The notes under the pieces were generated by a model. That model made no database searches and was not told the DNA's origin. It was given only the letters and a program-made list of their open reading frames with translations. A stretch of 46,241 nt of DNA from a virus: IMG/VR virus record IMGVR_UViG_3300022698_000322, positions 1 to 46,241 of that record; one strand, written 5' to 3'. Positions 10,617-45,484 of the stretch are shown here, piece by piece (the stretch's first letter is position 1; the number at the start of each line of letters is the position of its first letter). The translations under genes were made by a program, and so were the position numbers.

Positions 10617-11222
10617 TTAACGCGCCTCTTTACAGGTTATAACAAGTATTATCCCACGTTCTTGTATATTTTCAACAACTAAAATTTCTAAATATCTTGT
10701 TTGTCCGCCAGTAGTCCATTTTATTCGGTAACTTTCATTCGGTGTTCCGGTAATATCGAGTGCAGGCATAACATCGTACGCACTTGTATATACATATGAT
10801 ACTGGTTCAGTTGTCGTAGTAGTAGTCGGGGCCTCGGTTGTCGTAGTGGTAGTCGGAGCTTCAGTTGTCGTAGTAGTAGTCGGGGCCTCGGTTGTAGTAG
10901 TGGTAGTCGGAGCTTCGGTTGTCGTAGTAGTGGTCGGAGCCTCGGTCGTAGTAGTGGTAGTCGGAGCTTCGGTTGTCGTAGTGGTAGTCGGGGCCTCGGT
11001 TGTCGTAGTGGTAGTCGGAGCTTCAGTTGTCGTAGTAGTAGTCGGGGCCTCGGTTGTCGTAGTGGTAGTCGGAGCTTCGGTTGTAGTAGTGGTAGTGGTA
11101 GGTTCTTCGTACTCATGTTGTACATAAGCGGTCCCGTCTTTCCAGTAAACAGTAATATCGCTTCCTGTAGACTCGATTACTTCAGCGGTTCCGTTTTTCC
11201 ATACAACATCATTTATAGCCAT
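10617..11222 (-). CDS. Mucin-like Thr-rich virion surface protein
   Basis: A 201-residue protein in three parts. A 40-residue N-terminal beta domain holds two 'KNGTAEV/KDGTAYV' half-repeats. A central region has eleven Thr6-7 tracts spaced by 'EAP' (period nine residues). A 60-residue C-terminal domain ends 'ILVITCKEAR'. The middle region is unlikely to fold and resembles an O-glycosylated mucin stalk. It is co-transcribed with glycosyltransferases and lies inside the virion gene cluster. Both flanking genes are adjacent or overlapping by 1-2 bp. No enzymatic function is visible. Confidence 0.7.
   Translation of the reverse strand: MAINDVVWKNGTAEVIESTGSDITVYWKDGTAYVQHEYEEPTTTTTTTEAPTTTTTTEAPTTTTTTEAPTTTTTTEAPTTTTTTEAPTTTTTTEAPTTTTTTEAPTTTTTTEAPTTTTTTEAPTTTTTTEAPTTTTTTEPVSYVYTSAYDVMPALDITGTPNESYRIKWTTGGQTRYLEILVVENIQERGIILVITCKEAR
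10806..11102 (-). repeat. 27-bp tandem coding repeat (PTTTTTTEA units)
   Basis: Eleven near-identical 27-bp units encode Pro-Thr6-Glu-Ala. Synonymous variation (GGAGCTTC versus GGGGCCTC, GTAGTA versus GTAGTG) alternates between units, which suggests growth by duplication of larger blocks. Copy number is likely to vary between isolates. Confidence 0.95.
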
Positions 11223-13192
11223 TAACTAATCACCGCCTCCGGCCAAACATAAATTTCCTTCCCTGACTCATATTTGCAAAGCTTAATCTGGAAAAATGCA
11301 AATCCTGTTTGTGATGGAGTGAATGTCACCGATAGAGATTGTGTCCAGTCCGTATCGTTACTGCGTGTTGCAATAGTTTCGGTCGAGGCTGTTGTTGTCA
11401 ACGCACCGTCAGCACCGGCCATGTATTTTCCCTCTAAAATTATTTCGGTATTTGCAAGTGTATCAGTAAAAGTTGATTGAATTTTAAACGTATATGTTTT
11501 TTCAACCGATGCTTCAGCGTAAACTCCGTATTCATAATCATTCAAAACTTTTATAAAATTACTCGCAGATAAATTCGATTGTAAATTACTCACCTCAATA
11601 CAATAACCATTCCCGGTATCGGGATCAACGGACGGGGAATCTCCTGTTCCATCACATGCGGTCTTAATCGTATTACCCATAACCTGATATGTTTTATGGG
11701 AGTTTAGCGTTTTATCATCATGATCAGACAAACAAAGTGATGCACCGTCAATATCATTTAAATCATACAGCGATAACCCTGCAAGCGGCATTTTACAATT
11801 TTTGCATTTTGTAACTGGACTATAACCCAAATCGTTTGTATTTGGTGCGGAAACAGCACCGTTATAACCTAATCTACCGCTCACCGTATTATTGTTGGAA
11901 GAATAAAATCCATAAGTATTCGAGTAGATATCTCCGCTCACCGTATTATTGTTGGAAGACTCAAATCCATAAGTATTCGAGTAGATATCTCCGCTCACCG
12001 TATTATTGTTGGAAGAAATGACGCCACGATAATTTGAGTAGATATCTCCGCTCACCGTATTATTGTTGAAAGAAATGAAGCCACGATAATTTGAGTAGAC
12101 ATCTCCGCTCACCGTATTATTGTCGGAAGAATTAAATCCATAATAACTTGAGTAGATATCTCCGCTCACCGTATTATTGTTGGAAGAATTAAATCCATAA
12201 TAACTTGAGTAGACATCTCCGCTCACCGTATTATTGTTGGAAGAAATGACGCCATAATAATTTGAGTAGACATCTCCGCTCACAGTATTATTGTCGGAAG
12301 AATTAAATCCATTCTCTCCATTTCTAACAATACAATTAGTAAACGTACCTCCGTTTATGGTTATTCTATACAAACCAGTAAACTGAACATGACTACAAAC
12401 ATTTGAATTAACACCAGTCGTATTATCAACAAAAAATGGACGATTAGTATTATATCTGGACGCAGATTGAATATCAGTTTCCGCTCCATATTTGTAAATT
12501 TTCACATTCCTTGTTACATTCGCGACCCTTGAAACCCATGTATCTCCAACATCCGCAGTAACTCCGGTCAATGTATCATTAAGCGTAATAGTAGTCCCGC
12601 TTATTCCAGCTATAGTCCTTACTACAACAGCATCAGTACGTGAAGACGAATCTCCTGTGCTTTCCCTTTTTATCGTTATTTCATCACCTACATGCCAATC
12701 ACCATCCATATCGTTGTTCGTAATAATCGTGTTGTCACCATCGGTATTTTCAGCATTATTGTCAAGGGTAGTTTCCCAAGACGTGCAATAAGCGGAATCA
12801 CCATAAATATTATAAGTCCCTCCATCGGTCACAGTAATACCTTGAGCATTATCTCCTGTAGTATTGAATATTATTTCAGCAGTATAGGCGGCACCAACCG
12901 GAGTTACCGCCGAACCAACGTTGAGCGTCCCTGCTGCCCCTATCGTAAGCGAAACGTTTCCAAAAGTAAGTTTTGTGTCATCATCGGTGACGAAGGTAAG
13001 CGTCCCGTTTATAGTAGACGCGCCAAGTTCATTTGTCTCTGAAACGTTGTACGTCACCTCATGGCCGGTATCGACGGTAAAGGTATCCCCGGCACTCCCC
13101 GGCCAATCCGTTCCTTTTACCCCAGGGGAATCATTCCCCCATGTCGCTCCATCATCCCAGTCGCCTGTTTGTACGCTTGTAAATGCTGCCAT
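11222..13192 (-). CDS. Right-handed beta-helix virion surface protein with NosD-like repeats
   Basis: A 656-residue protein. The N-terminal 220 residues are a beta-solenoid-like region of the 'GNDSPGVKGTDWPGSAGDTFTVD' type (read as two blocks) seen in phage and bacterial surface proteins. Residues about 290-440 hold at least eight 19-residue repeats of the form 'NNNTVSGDIYSNYYG.SS', a parallel beta-helix rung pattern. After 'CKNCK' a Cys pair precedes a C-terminal beta-sandwich-like domain with 'GDSPSVDPDTGNGYCIEVS'. It is probably a fibre or capsid appendage that binds or cleaves a polysaccharide. No catalytic residues can be assigned. It overlaps the Thr-rich protein gene by 1 bp. Confidence 0.7.
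   Translation of the reverse strand: MAAFTSVQTGDWDDGATWGNDSPGVKGTDWPGSAGDTFTVDTGHEVTYNVSETNELGASTINGTLTFVTDDDTKLTFGNVSLTIGAAGTLNVGSAVTPVGAAYTAEIIFNTTGDNAQGITVTDGGTYNIYGDSAYCTSWETTLDNNAENTDGDNTIITNNDMDGDWHVGDEITIKRESTGDSSSRTDAVVVRTIAGISGTTITLNDTLTGVTADVGDTWVSRVANVTRNVKIYKYGAETDIQSASRYNTNRPFFVDNTTGVNSNVCSHVQFTGLYRITINGGTFTNCIVRNGENGFNSSDNNTVSGDVYSNYYGVISSNNNTVSGDVYSSYYGFNSSNNNTVSGDIYSSYYGFNSSDNNTVSGDVYSNYRGFISFNNNTVSGDIYSNYRGVISSNNNTVSGDIYSNTYGFESSNNNTVSGDIYSNTYGFYSSNNNTVSGRLGYNGAVSAPNTNDLGYSPVTKCKNCKMPLAGLSLYDLNDIDGASLCLSDHDDKTLNSHKTYQVMGNTIKTACDGTGDSPSVDPDTGNGYCIEVSNLQSNLSASNFIKVLNDYEYGVYAEASVEKTYTFKIQSTFTDTLANTEIILEGKYMAGADGALTTTASTETIATRSNDTDWTQSLSVTFTPSQTGFAFFQIKLCKYESGKEIYVWPEAVIS
11877..12310 (-). 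repeat. 57-bp tandem repeats in the beta-helix gene
   Basis: Units of 57 bp (19 codons) carry the invariant block 'ccgctcaccgtattattgtt' and a variable block that differs by a few bases. Adjacent units are almost identical at DNA level. This implies recent duplication or gene conversion rather than ancient rung repetition. Confidence 0.9.
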
Positions 13193-22240: not shown

Positions 22241-22283
22241 GAATAAAAATAAAAAAAGCCCGTGAAAATTAATCCACAGGCTT
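22241..22283 (-). terminator. Rho-independent terminator after the Cro-like gene
   Basis: On the minus strand AAGCCTGTGG-attaatttt-CACGGGCTT is followed by an uninterrupted T-rich run. It lies 31 bp past the HTH gene stop and would end the accessory-island transcript before the portal promoter region. Confidence 0.8.
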
Positions 22284-22521: not shown

Positions 22522-22950
22522 CTCACAATTCCCGCCCGGGCACGAGTTGAAACGATATTGCCGCCGATGGATGAAGCTATTTCCGATCTCACAATCCCCG
22601 CCCGCGCACGAGTTGAAACAATTGAATTTTTTCCGCCTTGCAGTCCCTTGCTCTCACAATCCCCGCCCGCGCACGAGTTGAAACAATACCGTTTCGTCAC
22701 AATCACTATCTTCGATTAGTCTCACAATCCCCGCTCGCGCACGAGTTGAAACCCGCCTTATAAATGATTATTGACAACTAAGCAATCTCACAATCCCCGC
22801 CCGCGCACGAGTTGAAACTAGCGCAGAAGAAGAGACTCTTGTCGCGCAATTACTCACAATCCCCGCCCGCGCACGAGTTGAAACGTTGCGGTTGGTTCCT
22901 TTTGAGAATACTGTTTTCCTCACAATCCCCGCCCGCGCACGAGTTGAAAC
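22522..22950. CRISPR. CRISPR array 1: seven 32-nt repeats, six spacers
   Basis: Repeats at 22522, 22588, 22653, 22721, 22787, 22853 and 22919, each 32 nt, beginning CTCACAATCCCCGCCC and ending GCACGAGTTGAAAC on the plus strand. Spacers are 34, 33, 36, 34, 34 and 34 nt and all unique. Repeats 2, 3, 5, 6 and 7 are identical; repeat 1 has two changes and repeat 4 has one. The 3' GTTGAAAC and the 32/34 geometry resemble type I-C-like repeats if read on the plus strand, while the degenerate repeat at the left end would suggest transcription from the right. Orientation is therefore open. No adaptation genes are nearby. Confidence 0.95.
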
Positions 22951-23271
22951 TGTATCACCCGCAACAACAATAAAATCAATATGTTGAAGTACCTCTTGCG
23001 CGTACCGGTAACCTCTCAATGTTGGATTGTTTGCGATTGTAATTGTATTGTTTCGATCTCCGTTACGTTTCAATGGGTTACAACTTGCGCGAAAGGTACG
23101 GGGTTTCATGTGTGCTACAGGTTCGCGCTCTGTGCGGGAAAAAATAAATGTGCCACCATCGATACTCGTTTTAAGCGGGTGGGGATCGGCAAAACAGCCG
23201 ATTGACATAAAACATCTACGCCGTGCGCGTTGTGATCGCGCTTTTTCTATATCGATGGTGACACTAATCAT
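22768..23271 (-). CDS. Hypothetical protein whose 3' end reads into CRISPR array 1
   Basis: ATG at 23271, one base after the stop of the preceding gene. The frame stays open for 167 residues. The first about 108 residues are unique ('MISVTIDIEKARSQRARRRC' to 'LQHIDFIVVAGD'). The rest is translation of array repeats and spacers ('VSTRARAGIV' three times). Either a real gene has had its end replaced by the array, or the frame is open by chance. No family recognised. Confidence 0.35.
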   Translation of the reverse strand: MISVTIDIEKARSQRARRRCFMSIGCFADPHPLKTSIDGGTFIFSRTEREPVAHMKPRTFRASCNPLKRNGDRNNTITIANNPTLRGYRYAQEVLQHIDFIVVAGDTVSTRARAGIVRKTVFSKGTNRNVSTRARAGIVSNCATRVSSSALVSTRARAGIVRLLSCQ

Positions 23272-23272
23272 T

Positions 23273-23473
23273 TTACGCCACCGCCAATGCTTCGCGGATT
23301 TTGGTTTTCCGAATATTAAGATTAGCACCGATCTGGCGAGCGGTTGCGTTCGACAGCCCGGCCTGAACAAGCGCTGATCTGTCCTCACGTTTACCGTCGA
23401 AATGCTCATCAGCAGCCTTGTCGAGCCTTTCCAGAGAGTTGTCGCTATGCTGTTCGAGTTTCTTCAGATCCAT
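23273..23473 (-). CDS. Small helical protein, possible DNA-binding
   Basis: A 66-residue all-helical, charged protein. The second half 'LVQAGLSNATARQIGANLNI' followed by 'RKTKIREALAVA' could form a helix-turn-helix. It overlaps the upstream zinc-ribbon gene by 29 bp and is followed after one base by the next ORF. This tight packing supports it being translated. It lies between the two CRISPR arrays; no homology is recognised. Confidence 0.5.
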   Translation of the reverse strand: MDLKKLEQHSDNSLERLDKAADEHFDGKREDRSALVQAGLSNATARQIGANLNIRKTKIREALAVA

Positions 23474-23666
23474 TCTGAACCACCTTTCGTAATAACGTTG
23501 AACGTTTATTTAATGACGACACTTTAATTCCTATATTAATAGCGTCGCCCTTGTTTGCATGATAAAACCGTATTCCTCGATCACCCTTACCCTTGCATCT
23601 ATCGCAGTATTTTTCCCTTGTGTTTATCGGGTTAAAATGTTTTTGACAGTTACTACACCTTTTCAT
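23445..23666 (-). CDS. Small zinc-ribbon protein
   Basis: A 73-residue protein starting 'MKRCSNCQKHFNP' and continuing 'REKYCDRCKGKG', giving two CxxC knuckles that would bind one Zn. The basic remainder suggests nucleic-acid binding. A Shine-Dalgarno (AAAGGTG) lies upstream. The degenerate first repeat of CRISPR array 2 sits immediately upstream of that ribosome-binding site, within the 5' leader. Confidence 0.6.
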   Translation of the reverse strand: MKRCSNCQKHFNPINTREKYCDRCKGKGDRGIRFYHANKGDAINIGIKVSSLNKRSTLLRKVVQNGSEETRTA

Positions 23667-23672
23667 TTTTCA

Positions 23673-23822
23673 CCTTTCACCCCCAGCGCGGGGGATAGAC
23701 TTATCATCGATAGTTATGTCCAGAAATAGCAATCCCGTTTCCCCGCGCGCGGGGGATAGACGGCAGTCTGGCAGCAGATCGGTTCCGAAATGACCCCGTT
23801 TCCCCGCGCGCTGGGGATAGAC
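23673..23822 (+). CRISPR. CRISPR array 2: three I-E-like repeats, two spacers
   Basis: 28-nt repeats at 23673, 23734 and 23795, exactly 61 bp apart, with 33-nt spacers at 23701 and 23762. Core 'TTTCCCCGCGCGCGGGGG' plus 'ATAGAC' reproduces the hairpin and 3' handle of type I-E repeats, and the 61-bp period equals the usual I-E repeat+spacer unit. Repeat 1 is degenerate in its left half; repeat 3 has one change. The handle orientation predicts transcription on the plus strand. No Cascade or cas3 gene is in the window. Confidence 0.85.
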
Positions 23823-23925
23823 ACCAATATATTGCGCGAAGGTGGACAAAACAGTCCATTATGTTGAGCTTTCCAACATGTGCGACAAACGGTAGCCGCT
23901 AAATTAACTATATTGATGTCTGTTT

Positions 23926-26858: not shown

Positions 26859-28607
26859 TTATAAAGCCATCCTGTTTACCATATCGTTATACTCCATATC
26901 TTCATAAACAGATTTTACCGGACCTTCATTTTCAATTGTAACGCCAATTGCCATTAATAAGGCGGCCATATCATCAATTTTGTCAGCAGATTTCTTCCTG
27001 TCAGGAGCCATATTTAAGTTTACATCCGTCCGAGCAACAATGTTTGATGCGCACCAGTTTAATACAGGATCACCCCCATGCCGCAGCTTTCCTGAAACAT
27101 ACATCTCTTCAAGTTTCTTCATCGCCGGATGATAGCTTTTTGGTCCCTGAATGAACTCAACAAGATTAAGACCTTCTTTTGTTAAATTGTTCGCAAGTTC
27201 TGTTGCATTCCAGCGATCATACGCTATTGTTTGTATTTTAAATTTATTGTTTAATTCTATGATATCACGTTCTACTACCTCATAATCAATAACATTTCCC
27301 CCTGTTTTTTTGATCAACCCCATATTAACCCATGCGGAATACGGTACGGTTCCACGTTCAGTTCTAATTTTTATAGCATCCTCCGGGCACCATCGCCAAC
27401 CGTAAGTATAATATATACCGTCAACATCCCAAAGCAGCCGAAACGCGGCAAGGTCCATCGTACTCGCAAGATCAAGTCCACCATAACAAGGATATTCTTT
27501 CACAAAATCAAAATCAATTTCAGAAGAGCACTCACGCCATTTTAAAAGATTAACCCATCCACCCGAAACCGAAGCCTGACGATTAAGTCGTTTTATTTTG
27601 AACTCAGCCAATTTAGATGGCATTTGCTTTGCCTCAATAGCTTCTTTACGTATTGCGGAAAGTAAATTAGGGTTTGTATCTATAAGCGGGTTTGCCTTTA
27701 CCCATTTTGATTCGTCGAAATCATCATCGGCTTTTATACCGGCAGTCTTATCTTCATCGTCCAGACACCAGAATAAAGCCAAAAAATGATCTGCTTCGTT
27801 TCCAAATACGCCCTGCAATAACTTTTTCGAAAAATCCCGCAGTTCACCCCATGGACCAGGTGATGTATACCCCTCTGTCGTAGTATATAACCATAGCGGA
27901 TTAGACCGCGCACCAGCAGCAGAAGTCAACACGTTTAGAAGATCTGGATCTTTATGTGCATGTATCTCATCAAGTGCCGTATGAGACGGATTCAACCCGT
28001 CTTGAGTACTTGCTTTCGCATGTATTGGCCTGAAATTACTACCAGTATCATATTTAGTTATCGCCTTGGCCCACACCTCTAACCCAAAAGCCTCCCGAAG
28101 TTCGGGAGTTTTTTCAATCATCTTTTTTGCGATGCCGAAAATTATAGCAGCTTGAGGAAACGTTGTGGCGGCACTAATTACCTGTGCGCCAGGTTCGCCC
28201 TCACAGCATATACAATATATTAAAATTGCCGCTGCGAGGGTGCTCTTTCCAGACTTCCGTGCCGTGGCATACAAAGCAGACGTAAAACGACGGCCACCAG
28301 TTTTTTTATCCCTAAACCCGAATAATTGAACAATAAAAAAGCATTGCGCCGGATGTAATACGATTGTCGGTGAATCCCATTTACCTTCTACGTGCGGGAG
28401 CTTTTCAATAAAATCACATGCGTTATTACCTTCGTTTTCTTCGTAATTTTTATTAAAATAAAATGTACAATCCTTTTTTTTTGTCCTTTTTAAATCATCT
28501 AGAAAACGCTGTGCTGCCAATCGTATCCATCGGCAATGTTTTTTATAATTTTTATCACTTATTGCATCACGCGCATACTTTTCTGCCGTTTCAACATAAT
28601 TTTTCAT
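26859..28607 (-). CDS. terL: Terminase large subunit
   Basis: A 582-residue packaging motor. ATPase domain: 'ATARKSGKSTLAAAIL' is Walker A (about residue 112) and 'PSHTALDEIHAHKD' carries Walker B Asp-Glu. Nuclease domain: 'YGGLDLASTMDLAAF' (RNase H-like first Asp) and 'KIDDMAALLMAIG' (last Asp pair). It is of the HK97/P2-like Terminase_1 type. It overlaps terS by 4 bp. Confidence 0.95.
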   Translation of the reverse strand: MKNYVETAEKYARDAISDKNYKKHCRWIRLAAQRFLDDLKRTKKKDCTFYFNKNYEENEGNNACDFIEKLPHVEGKWDSPTIVLHPAQCFFIVQLFGFRDKKTGGRRFTSALYATARKSGKSTLAAAILIYCICCEGEPGAQVISAATTFPQAAIIFGIAKKMIEKTPELREAFGLEVWAKAITKYDTGSNFRPIHAKASTQDGLNPSHTALDEIHAHKDPDLLNVLTSAAGARSNPLWLYTTTEGYTSPGPWGELRDFSKKLLQGVFGNEADHFLALFWCLDDEDKTAGIKADDDFDESKWVKANPLIDTNPNLLSAIRKEAIEAKQMPSKLAEFKIKRLNRQASVSGGWVNLLKWRECSSEIDFDFVKEYPCYGGLDLASTMDLAAFRLLWDVDGIYYTYGWRWCPEDAIKIRTERGTVPYSAWVNMGLIKKTGGNVIDYEVVERDIIELNNKFKIQTIAYDRWNATELANNLTKEGLNLVEFIQGPKSYHPAMKKLEEMYVSGKLRHGGDPVLNWCASNIVARTDVNLNMAPDRKKSADKIDDMAALLMAIGVTIENEGPVKSVYEDMEYNDMVNRMAL

Positions 28608-29531: not shown

Positions 29532-29954
29532 TTAATTTTCTGCGCGCGCGTCTTCGTTTTTCTGTGCCCACTGCACCCAATTTCTTATACGCTGCTTCAC
29601 AATATCAAGCGTCGCTGGTTTCCACTTCTCGCCCTTCCCGGAAAACCACACCATAAGGCCATCCACCACCATAGTCTCAGCATTGCCAGAAACCACAAAA
29701 ACGGATAATAATTTTGTTTTCGTCAATCGTTCGTACATCAGAAGTTGCCCGCGCTTGAGTTCCTGCTGTCCTTCTTTCCATTCGAGCATTAAGCCCTTTC
29801 CGTTGATCTCTACTATCGCGTCAACGTCTCCAAAGTTGATTCGTCCGGGAAAGCAGTCTGAAAAAAATTCGATCTTTGGCCGCTTCAGCTTGTTGAAACA
29901 TCCGCGCTTATCGCAATCCCACCGAAGCGGGTTATATCCGTTCACCTGCTCCAT
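29532..29954 (-). CDS. PD-(D/E)XK-like nuclease
   Basis: A 140-residue protein. 'INFGDVDAIVEINGKGLMLE' followed by 'WKEGQQ' gives the core Asp...Glu-x-Lys of the PD-(D/E)XK fold (about residues 37-61). The preceding 'CDKRGCFNKLKRPKIEFF' contains a Cys pair. The gene overlaps the ParB-Dam methyltransferase by 13 bp on the same strand, so the two are coupled. The pairing recalls a compact restriction-modification or nuclease-protection unit, but phage DNA-processing nucleases of this kind also exist alone. Confidence 0.7.
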   Translation of the reverse strand: MEQVNGYNPLRWDCDKRGCFNKLKRPKIEFFSDCFPGRINFGDVDAIVEINGKGLMLEWKEGQQELKRGQLLMYERLTKTKLLSVFVVSGNAETMVVDGLMVWFSGKGEKWKPATLDIVKQRIRNWVQWAQKNEDARAEN

Positions 29955-30991
29955 GTAATGCCAAACTTTCCGAACACCCGACAGAAAACATCAGACTTCT
30001 TTCCAAGGTAAATGACGGCTTGCCCTTGAAGTGGCGCGCCGGGATTTCCGCTTGGGTCAAGAAAACGAATCCGGCTTTTAGGAAAGCAAACCGCACTGCT
30101 GCATTCTGCCATGCTCTGAAACCATGCTGTTTCAGTTGCGTTGTTCACGAGTACACACGCTTCATCAATCTCCTTTGCCTTAAACTTCTTGACAATCGCG
30201 GCGGAGAATTGGCCTATCAGCGGCTGCGCATAAGGCGGATTCATGAATGTGCGCCCATGCCATCTATTTGAAAGCCCGTCGTCGTCGATTGTGAAAAATG
30301 TTTCGGCCTTCACCGTGCGGTTCGCCTTCTCGCTCGATGCCGGATCACAGTCAATGCCGCCCATGACTTCGCGGACGGCTTTGACGTACTCTGGCGGCGT
30401 GTACCATTCATTTTCTCCTGTGGCAAGCGCAACATGCGCCTTCTTTTCTGTTGCTGTTGCCTTGGATTCAAAGTCTTTCACAACTTCCCGCTGCTTCTCC
30501 GGCGTAGCTTTTGTAAGACGCGCCGCCACGCTCACCGGCATTTTCCCTGAGTCCACGGCACGCGATAACTCCGGCGTTCCACGCTCCTGCACCACGCGGG
30601 CGCGCTGAACACTGCTACGAGCAACCGACATTCGTTTTGCTGCACCGGCCTGAGAAACTGCTTCAATTGAAGCAGTTGTTTTCTCTGGCCTGCCTTCGTT
30701 CATCGTCGCAATTCTCGCGGCGATCATTGCCCGCTGCGATTCGTTCAAATGGCGTCGCTTAAGGTTCAGCGAAATCACGAAGCCAAGCGGGTCTTTGCCT
30801 TTGTATTCGCGTGTCTTGATTTCAACTCCAGCATCCTTGCACGCTCGCGCCCGGTTGCGCCCGTCAAGAATTTTGTCCTCGTACAACCAGACTGACTCAT
30901 GCAGGCCATTCTCTTTGATGTCGGCAACGAGCGCATCGTATTCCGCGCCTTCAATCATCGGAAAAATGTCTGCCATCGGATGGTATTTCAT
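29942..30991 (-). CDS. ParB-like domain fused to phage Dam-type N6-adenine methyltransferase
   Basis: A 349-residue protein. Residues 1-100 are ParB-N-like ('EYDALVADIKENGLHESVWL', 'ILDGRNRARACKDAG', 'LNLKRRHLNESQRAMIAARI'). A KorB-like helical linker follows to about 190. The C-terminal half has the phage Dam pattern 'GENEWYTPPEYVKAVREVMG', 'IDCDPASSEKAN' and the catalytic 'TFMNPPYAQPLIGQF' (NPPY). It probably methylates adenines in phage DNA. GC content is above that of the late genes, fitting acquisition by transfer. It lies between inverted repeats and attC-like sites. Confidence 0.88.
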   Translation of the reverse strand: MKYHPMADIFPMIEGAEYDALVADIKENGLHESVWLYEDKILDGRNRARACKDAGVEIKTREYKGKDPLGFVISLNLKRRHLNESQRAMIAARIATMNEGRPEKTTASIEAVSQAGAAKRMSVARSSVQRARVVQERGTPELSRAVDSGKMPVSVAARLTKATPEKQREVVKDFESKATATEKKAHVALATGENEWYTPPEYVKAVREVMGGIDCDPASSEKANRTVKAETFFTIDDDGLSNRWHGRTFMNPPYAQPLIGQFSAAIVKKFKAKEIDEACVLVNNATETAWFQSMAECSSAVCFPKSRIRFLDPSGNPGAPLQGQAVIYLGKKSDVFCRVFGKFGITWSR

Positions 30992-44708: not shown

Positions 44709-44749
44709 ATTTGCGAAGCGCAAACTTCACACTTTGTCAAACGTTATAC
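44678..44749 (+). repeat. attC-like site 7 (canonical)
   Basis: R'' GCCTAAC (matches RYYYAAC), stem CAAAGTGTG/CACACTTTG, hairpin TTTGCGAAGCGCAAA, core GTTATAC (44743). The clearest attC in the window. Confidence 0.9.
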
Positions 44750-44776
44750 GCAATTGCACCGGAGAGCAGATATTAT

Positions 44777-45484
44777 ATGCGCGCCCTAAATACAATTCAT
44801 AGAGTCGATTCCTTTGCGGAGCTTCATGCGCTCGCTTCTCAGTGCGTAGATTTTGCCTTCGCCGACCCGCCGTATGGTGTCAACAAGGCAGAATGGGACA
44901 GCGCCTACCCTCGTTTCGATTTCGAGGCTGAGTTGCTCCGCGTTACGCGAAAGGGTGTTGCTGTTACGCCGGGCCAAGAACAAATCGCCACTTGTATCCA
45001 GCGTATGGGTGCGGCTTATCAAGGTTTGCACGTCGGGCGCAATCTCAACGGTATGACTTTCAACAAGCTTGGTTTCGAAAACACCATTATTGCCGTTATC
45101 GGCGGCGGTGCCGTGCGGGGGCAGTCATTTTTCGAGTTTTCTGTTTCTGGCGAGAAGCCGCCGCACCCTTCTCCTAAGCCGATTGAGTACATGGTCAAGT
45201 TGCTTCTGCGATTTACCGAACCGGGCGATATTGTTCTTGATCCTTTCTCCGGTAGTGGCACAACCGCCATTGCCTGTCACAAACTTGGTCGGCGTTTTCT
45301 TTGTTTCGAGCATGATATTCAGTATCACGCGCTGTCCCTCGAACGACTGGAACAGGAGCGAGCTCAACAGTGCCTTTTCGGGGCAGAGGGCGCGCTGGAA
45401 TCTAAGGAATCCGGTGCAACAGCGTATAACAGCGGCAGTATGCAATTATCGCTGGACATTATGGAAGTGGGCAATAGGCGATAA
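44777..45484 (+). CDS. Cassette 8 DNA methyltransferase (N4/N6, beta class)
   Basis: Start chosen at ATG 44777, outside the attC core, giving 235 residues. 'VDFAFADPPYGVNKAEWDS' is the catalytic DPPY motif near the N-terminus. 'DIVLDPFSGSGTTAIACHKL' near residue 155 is the SAM-binding motif. This order (IV before I) defines beta-class enzymes of phage orphan or type II methylases. The last residues overlap the attC site. No cognate restriction gene is seen, so it is probably a protective or regulatory orphan enzyme. Confidence 0.92.
   Translation: MRALNTIHRVDSFAELHALASQCVDFAFADPPYGVNKAEWDSAYPRFDFEAELLRVTRKGVAVTPGQEQIATCIQRMGAAYQGLHVGRNLNGMTFNKLGFENTIIAVIGGGAVRGQSFFEFSVSGEKPPHPSPKPIEYMVKLLLRFTEPGDIVLDPFSGSGTTAIACHKLGRRFLCFEHDIQYHALSLERLEQERAQQCLFGAEGALESKESGATAYNSGSMQLSLDIMEVGNRR

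Follow-up and report, generated by a model that had tools for sequence, protein, structure and literature searches.

Type V-F CRISPR systems are built on Cas12f (Cas14, V-U3), an effector defined by the D, E and D residues of its RuvC domain and by the zinc ribbon of its TNB domain; the array lies downstream of the effector gene, the tracrRNA between the two. Nuclease-dead Cas12f (dCas12f) systems associated with sigma factors also exist. In the Cas12f complex solved by cryo-EM, one anti-repeat duplex is formed by the loop of the 5-bp stem 3 of the tracrRNA, the second by the tracrRNA 3' end (PMC8053092). RuvC-inactivated Cas12 proteins accompanied by arrays, which bind without cleavage, are found in type V-C (Cas12c) and type V-M (Cas12m), the latter common on mobile elements. 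Both interfere by binding, and block transcription (PMC12669027). TldR, a phage-encoded nuclease-dead relative of TnpB, represses host flagellin (PMC13418256); the guide RNA described for it is its own and adjacent, and does not come from an array of different spacers. Viruses may also carry mini-arrays with host repeats (PMC11656645), and a decoy role has been proposed for the phage Cas9 of type II-C2, which has an inactive RuvC and is accompanied by a phage tracrRNA (PMC11656645, PMC12669027). Small type V homologues (V-U/Cas12f-like ORFs) located beside viral arrays, lacking adaptation genes and with RuvC motifs not always found, are reported in those parts of a landfill virome study considered here, in which cognate paralogous tracrRNAs are not described (PMC12607003).

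Two arrays in a phage cassette

The DNA analyzed, called the window throughout, is a 46,241-base IMG/VR record encoding terminase, portal, head protease, capsid, tail, helicase and primase. Two arrays, with different repeats as originally predicted, reside between the portal and terminase genes (Table 1). The repeats of array 1 start at 22522, 22588, 22653, 22721, 22787, 22853 and 22919; five of the seven copies are identical, one has one mismatch, and one has two. Repeats of array 2 start at 23673, 23734 and 23795, with a period of 61 nt, the copy at 23673 being degenerate. The eight spacers of the two arrays are all different. The number of exact 32-mer duplicate pairs expected by chance in 46 kb is ~1e-10. 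An ORF at 22768-23409 runs across array 1 and probably does not represent a gene.

Table 1. Coordinates of the cassette components and of its border in the window
Feature	Coordinates	Strand	Remarks
Terminator-like hairpin with U-run	22256..22283	-	after the HTH gene; 2 found vs. 3.1 expected by chance, hence weak by itself
Cro/C1-type HTH protein, 60 aa	22314..22496	-	Pfam HTH_3, E 3.7e-5; directly downstream of array 1
Array 1	22522..22950	-	seven 32-nt repeats, six spacers of 33-36 nt, all different
Candidate second (3') anti-repeat of tracr-b	23077..23091	-	CGCGCAAGTTGTAAC, complementary to the 5' part of repeat 1
tracr-b	23152..23262	-	structured RNA preceding array 1; anti-repeat in the loop (TCACAA, 23230-23235)
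66-aa ORF	23273..23473	-	95% identical in L013, partial in L008; no significant family
Zinc-ribbon-like ORF, 73 aa	23445..23666	-	weak zinc-ribbon matches; 73-77% identity in L013/L008
Array 2	23673..23822	-	three 28-nt repeats (GTCTATCCCCCGCGCGCGGGGAAACGGG), two 33-nt spacers
tracr-a	23819..23921	-	structured RNA immediately preceding array 2; anti-repeat in the loop (CCGTTT, 23887-23892)
Cas12f-like effector, 375 aa	23926..25053	-	predicted nuclease-dead, C-terminally truncated

Three more contigs with a close homologue of the effector were retrieved from IMG/VR (L008, L013 and L014). L013 and L014 are the same over effector and arrays, which leaves three distinct phages, the window included. 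The order effector, tracr-a, repeat 2, zinc-ribbon ORF, 66-aa ORF, tracr-b, array 1, HTH gene is kept. Array 1 is syntenic in L008 and L013/L014, with five repeats in each, and none of its spacers is common to the window, L008 and L013/L014. Repeat 2 is found in one or two copies in the relatives, L013 having a single one.

Repeats of array 1 vary in the relatives. The L008 array (L008:6256-6551) is made up of two repeat subtypes, leader-proximal GTTTCGTC and distal GTTTCATC, the distal ones resembling the L013 repeat. The fourth spacer of L013 (L013:7519-7565) includes a 12-nt piece of the repeat, a sign of within-array recombination or misalignment.

The cassette is bordered by the 60-aa HTH gene, which occurs also in L015, a cassette-less contig related by its terminase (75%), portal (86%) and HTH gene (66%). 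Since other genes replace the cassette in L015, the slot is regarded as variable cargo space. Tandem 5-nt GACNN blocks, NN varying, were noticed in this slot of L015 (6033-6175, 6765-6850 and 6865-6992), flanking a 188-aa ORF with no Pfam match. The large terminase of the window (26859-28607) is 66% identical to that of Pseudomonas phages phi2 and TC7, whereas the best matches of the portal are at 35-38%, mostly in Firmicutes phages; the contrast suggests a mosaic genome. Elsewhere in the window, long tandem repeats of 27/54 nt and 57 nt lie in coding sequence at 10806-11096 and 11872-12312, between head and tail genes, the proteins encoded having no PHROG match, and two DNA methyltransferases are encoded at 29942-30991 and 44711-45484, one with a ParB-like N-terminal part. 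The contigs may be fragments, and the absences reported below hold for these contigs only.

Orientation of the arrays

The most degenerate repeat is the lowest-coordinate copy in array 1 as in array 2. The last array-1 repeat of L013, at the far end equivalent to that of the window, is the degenerate one too. As the degenerate copy is at the low-coordinate end, and tracrRNAs and effector on the opposite side, the arrays read on the minus strand, and not on the plus strand, on which the repeat of array 1 had been taken to end in GTTGAAAC. Repeat 1 accordingly reads GTTTCAACTCGTGCGCGGGCGGGGATTGTGAG, its copy at 22522 is leader-distal, and the effector gene and the structured RNAs are upstream.

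The effector

The 375-aa protein matches the PADLOC Cas12u3 profile over residues 3-368 (E 8.2e-17). This profile matches all three effector homologues, the Cas12f profile two of them (best E 1.1e-12), while NCBIfam guided_TnpB matches the effector at E 8e-7, under its cut-off. The best match in the PDB is 9n9c, a nuclease-deactivated Cas12f of 365 aa, followed by Cas12f and TnpB-like proteins; the 9n9c alignment covers only about 84 residues, with weak E values (0.0002-0.0008). An AlphaFold model built on the alignment of three sequences has a pLDDT of 39, and the fold assignment rests on sequence profiles. No homologue of the effector was found in a set of genomes from 84,980 species.

In the alignment to solved structures D is replaced by E in RuvC motif I (MYVEF) and E by N in motif II (LVVINM), both changes being invariant in the three homologues. 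The C-terminus stops inside the TNB domain, recognizable over 23 of 60 positions and in L008 only, and both the third RuvC motif and the zinc ribbon end are missing. With the RuvC acids replaced and the C-terminal end lost, the effector is predicted to be incapable of cleavage. The ORF is intact in the three phages (372-375 aa) and under purifying selection, pN between window and relatives being 0.17, against a saturated pS of 0.84-0.86. The protein is thus predicted to be a conserved nuclease-dead Cas12f. In the absence of the RuvC D, E, D residues and of the TNB zinc ribbon, the system is called V-F-like, and not an active V-F member.

Two related structured RNAs

Each array is preceded by its own structured RNA of ~105 nt, encoded on the minus strand in a non-coding block. 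The block conserved after the effector gene was considered as a zinc ribbon displaced to another frame, an interpretation dropped because structure and compensatory changes show the block to be RNA. Fold z scores of tracr-b are -5.4 in the window, -6.1 and -4.6 in the relatives; those of tracr-a are -4.0 in the window, -2.8 in L013 and -0.9, not significant, in L008, in which the outer stem is not kept. Eleven compensatory pairs support tracr-b in the three phages (shuffled mean 4.0, none of 500 shuffles as high). Standard pairs occupy 95.8% of the cells of its alignment, and the signal is lost when the partner is slid.

When a covariance model is built from tracr-b sequences only, tracr-a is recovered with it in L013 (E 5.6e-8) and in the window (E 8.6e-7); E is 4e-31 for the window tracr-b, a sequence used in building the model. 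The same model has no match in 609 kb of terminase-related phages, and no Rfam family reaches the gathering threshold. Matches to the tracr-a hairpin in L009-L012 are due to chance. Both scaffolds feature a closing stem, a 5-bp stem carrying the anti-repeat loop, a hairpin, and a CTGTTTTG-type hairpin. tracr-a and tracr-b have one fold in common and, as paralogous scaffolds, a common descent. This, and the same gene order in related phages, speak against the two separate acquisitions suggested by the heterogeneity of the repeats. The 61-nt core of tracr-a is identical at 57 of 61 positions between the window and each relative, while the synonymous sites of the effector are saturated. In the window tracr-a continues directly into the first repeat 2; in L013 it is joined to the lone repeat, followed by a single possible guide or by the start of the next gene. 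Given the loss of the stem in L008 and the single repeat in L013, tracr-a may be decaying or have another role.

The loops of the 5-bp stems pair with the repeats of the adjacent arrays. TCACAA of tracr-b pairs with UUGUGA of repeat 1, CCGUUU of tracr-a with AAACGG of repeat 2, in both cases by six Watson-Crick pairs, in the same register, ending 1 nt before the spacer. Neither loop pairs in this way with the repeat of the other array. In a fixed-register Watson-Crick test the random expectation for the two loops is 0.0022 and 0.0009; in a looser test, with G-U pairs allowed and the register free, p is 0.06 and 0.16. A second, 3' anti-repeat is a candidate in tracr-b: the region fits best the repeat of its own phage in each of the three (p 0.03, 0.02 and <0.001), which lends it modest support. 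The 3' anti-repeat of L008, GACGAAAC, is matched by the two leader-proximal repeats of that phage (GTTTCGTC...), and the distal repeats carry GTTTCATC. A scan for anti-repeats by RNAduplex, by which the 3' region was flagged, was set aside as non-discriminating, the repeats being GC-rich.

Other cas genes and spacer targets

Six-frame searches of the window and the three related contigs detected neither Cas1, Cas2 nor Cas5, positive controls being matched. The expected lack of cas1 and cas2 is thus confirmed, that of Cascade for Cas5, the one subunit searched for separately. With no cas1 or cas2 found, the phage alone cannot add spacers, which sets the locus apart from autonomous adaptive CRISPR systems. 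Neither an integrase nor a Sigma70_r2 domain was found in the four contigs, which are possibly fragments. The genomes of the 84,980 species contain no match to a degenerate pattern drawn so as to include repeat 1 of all three phages.

Matchless spacers are common in metagenomic phage arrays. No significant target was found for the spacers in the window, in its relatives, in 0.9 Mb of terminase-related phages, in phage and plasmid collections or, by degenerate patterns, over IMG/VR, and hence no PAM can be derived. Spacers w1_4 and w2_1 seemed to derive from the terminase, an idea discarded after a shuffle test (p 0.05 and 0.18 among 16 spacers).

Discussion

The locus resembles type V-F systems in the profile match of the effector, in the position of the array, downstream of the effector gene and separated from it by the tracrRNA, and in the 5-bp stem loop that pairs with the repeat, to which a 3' anti-repeat may be added with moderate support. 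It differs because the effector, of 375 aa, lacks the TNB end and the RuvC catalytic residues, and because two scaffolds and two arrays are present, on a phage. The change of E to N in motif II is shared with 9n9c, and both proteins end just after the second RuvC motif; unlike the sigma-factor-associated dCas12f, no sigma-70 region-2 domain is encoded in these phage contigs. Types V-M and V-C are alike in the combination of an inactivated RuvC with arrays, yet belong by profile to other Cas12 subtypes.

The interpretation we favor, at a probability of roughly three in four, is that of a V-F-like phage module, in which a dead Cas12f-like effector served by two cognate guide sets obstructs transcription or replication at the DNA it binds. 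The arrays had already been suggested to feed, possibly, the Cas12-like protein next to them, and the upstream effector and the tracrRNA-like RNAs with cognate anti-repeats argue for it. The main idea of the same original prediction was that of mini-arrays with I-C and I-E repeats of the host, processed by the host Cascade and used against competitors. On the plus strand array 2 does resemble I-E repeats in length, period and hairpin, and virus-borne arrays with host repeats exist, as mentioned above. Read on the plus strand, however, the arrays would have the degenerate repeat at the wrong end. Moreover, cas12f is syntenic in all three phages, and for each repeat a cognate anti-repeat is present in a neighboring tracrRNA-like RNA, supported in tracr-b by compensatory changes. 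Type I systems do not use tracrRNA, and no relative of repeat 1 is known from the genome set; for both reasons reliance on a host type I system, and with it the assignment to types I-C and I-E, for which Cas5 is also wanting in the contigs, is very unlikely. A decoy, in which dead Cas12f and tracrRNAs sequester the type V crRNAs of the host, as proposed for the II-C2 Cas9, is highly improbable: it would not need arrays of its own with many different spacers, and host repeats related to array 1 are missing from the same genome set.

Loss of catalytic residues and C-terminus, one partly degenerate repeat per array, and the reduction of array 2 in L013 are what a decaying TnpB/Cas12f relic with inert arrays would exhibit. 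Yet the intact ORFs and low pN against a saturated pS, the conservation of the tracr-a core over the same divergence, and the compensatory changes in tracr-b make decay extremely improbable. A TldR-like regulator is unlikely, less so than the readings just discussed. The dead effector and its guides would repress chosen host promoters, aiding lysogeny or takeover. As TldR, the effector is a dead TnpB/Cas12f-like protein on a phage (its TnpB profile match being under cut-off), HTH genes flank the cassette, and the L013 tracr-a fused to one repeat, and then to a single possible guide, comes nearest to the adjacent guide without array of TldR. Against this, two arrays with eight spacers are found here, spacers are not common to the phages, and the four contigs lack an integrase. 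A TldR-like function is compatible with the V-F-like module, since the biochemistry would be the same and the targets alone would differ.

In the module as we envisage it, the dead Cas12f-like protein would take crRNAs from both arrays, each with its cognate tracrRNA-like scaffold, the 5-bp hairpin loop pairing with the end of the repeat just before the spacer. We infer that the components are expressed and assemble into a ribonucleoprotein, which would bind double-stranded DNA matching the spacer, next to a 5' PAM, and remain on it, so that the target would be left uncut but its transcription or replication stopped. Binding and transcription block are proposed because the inactivated Cas12 proteins of types V-C and V-M act in this way (PMC12669027). 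Competing mobile elements or host genes would be the likely targets.

Two paralogous tracrRNAs serving one effector would be the unusual feature of this locus. It is conceivable, though we hold this view tentatively, that the scaffolds arose by duplication and diverged, their loops specializing to two repeats for one dead Cas12f, and that a cis-fused, omega-RNA-like tracr-a now stands beside a trans-acting tracrRNA. If so, the locus would represent a still living intermediate between the guides of TnpB and those of Cas12, and the phage would be able to address two sets of targets separately.

Natural CRISPR interference without a nuclease is rarely encoded by phages and mostly untested. Here the effector is very small, adaptation genes are lacking and there are two cognate scaffolds, so that the rule by which Cas12f reads its tracrRNA could be tested by loop swaps. 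The finding bears on the splitting of TnpB omega-RNAs into tracrRNA and crRNA, and recasts apparently orphan phage arrays as a defined module for which a mechanism is predicted.
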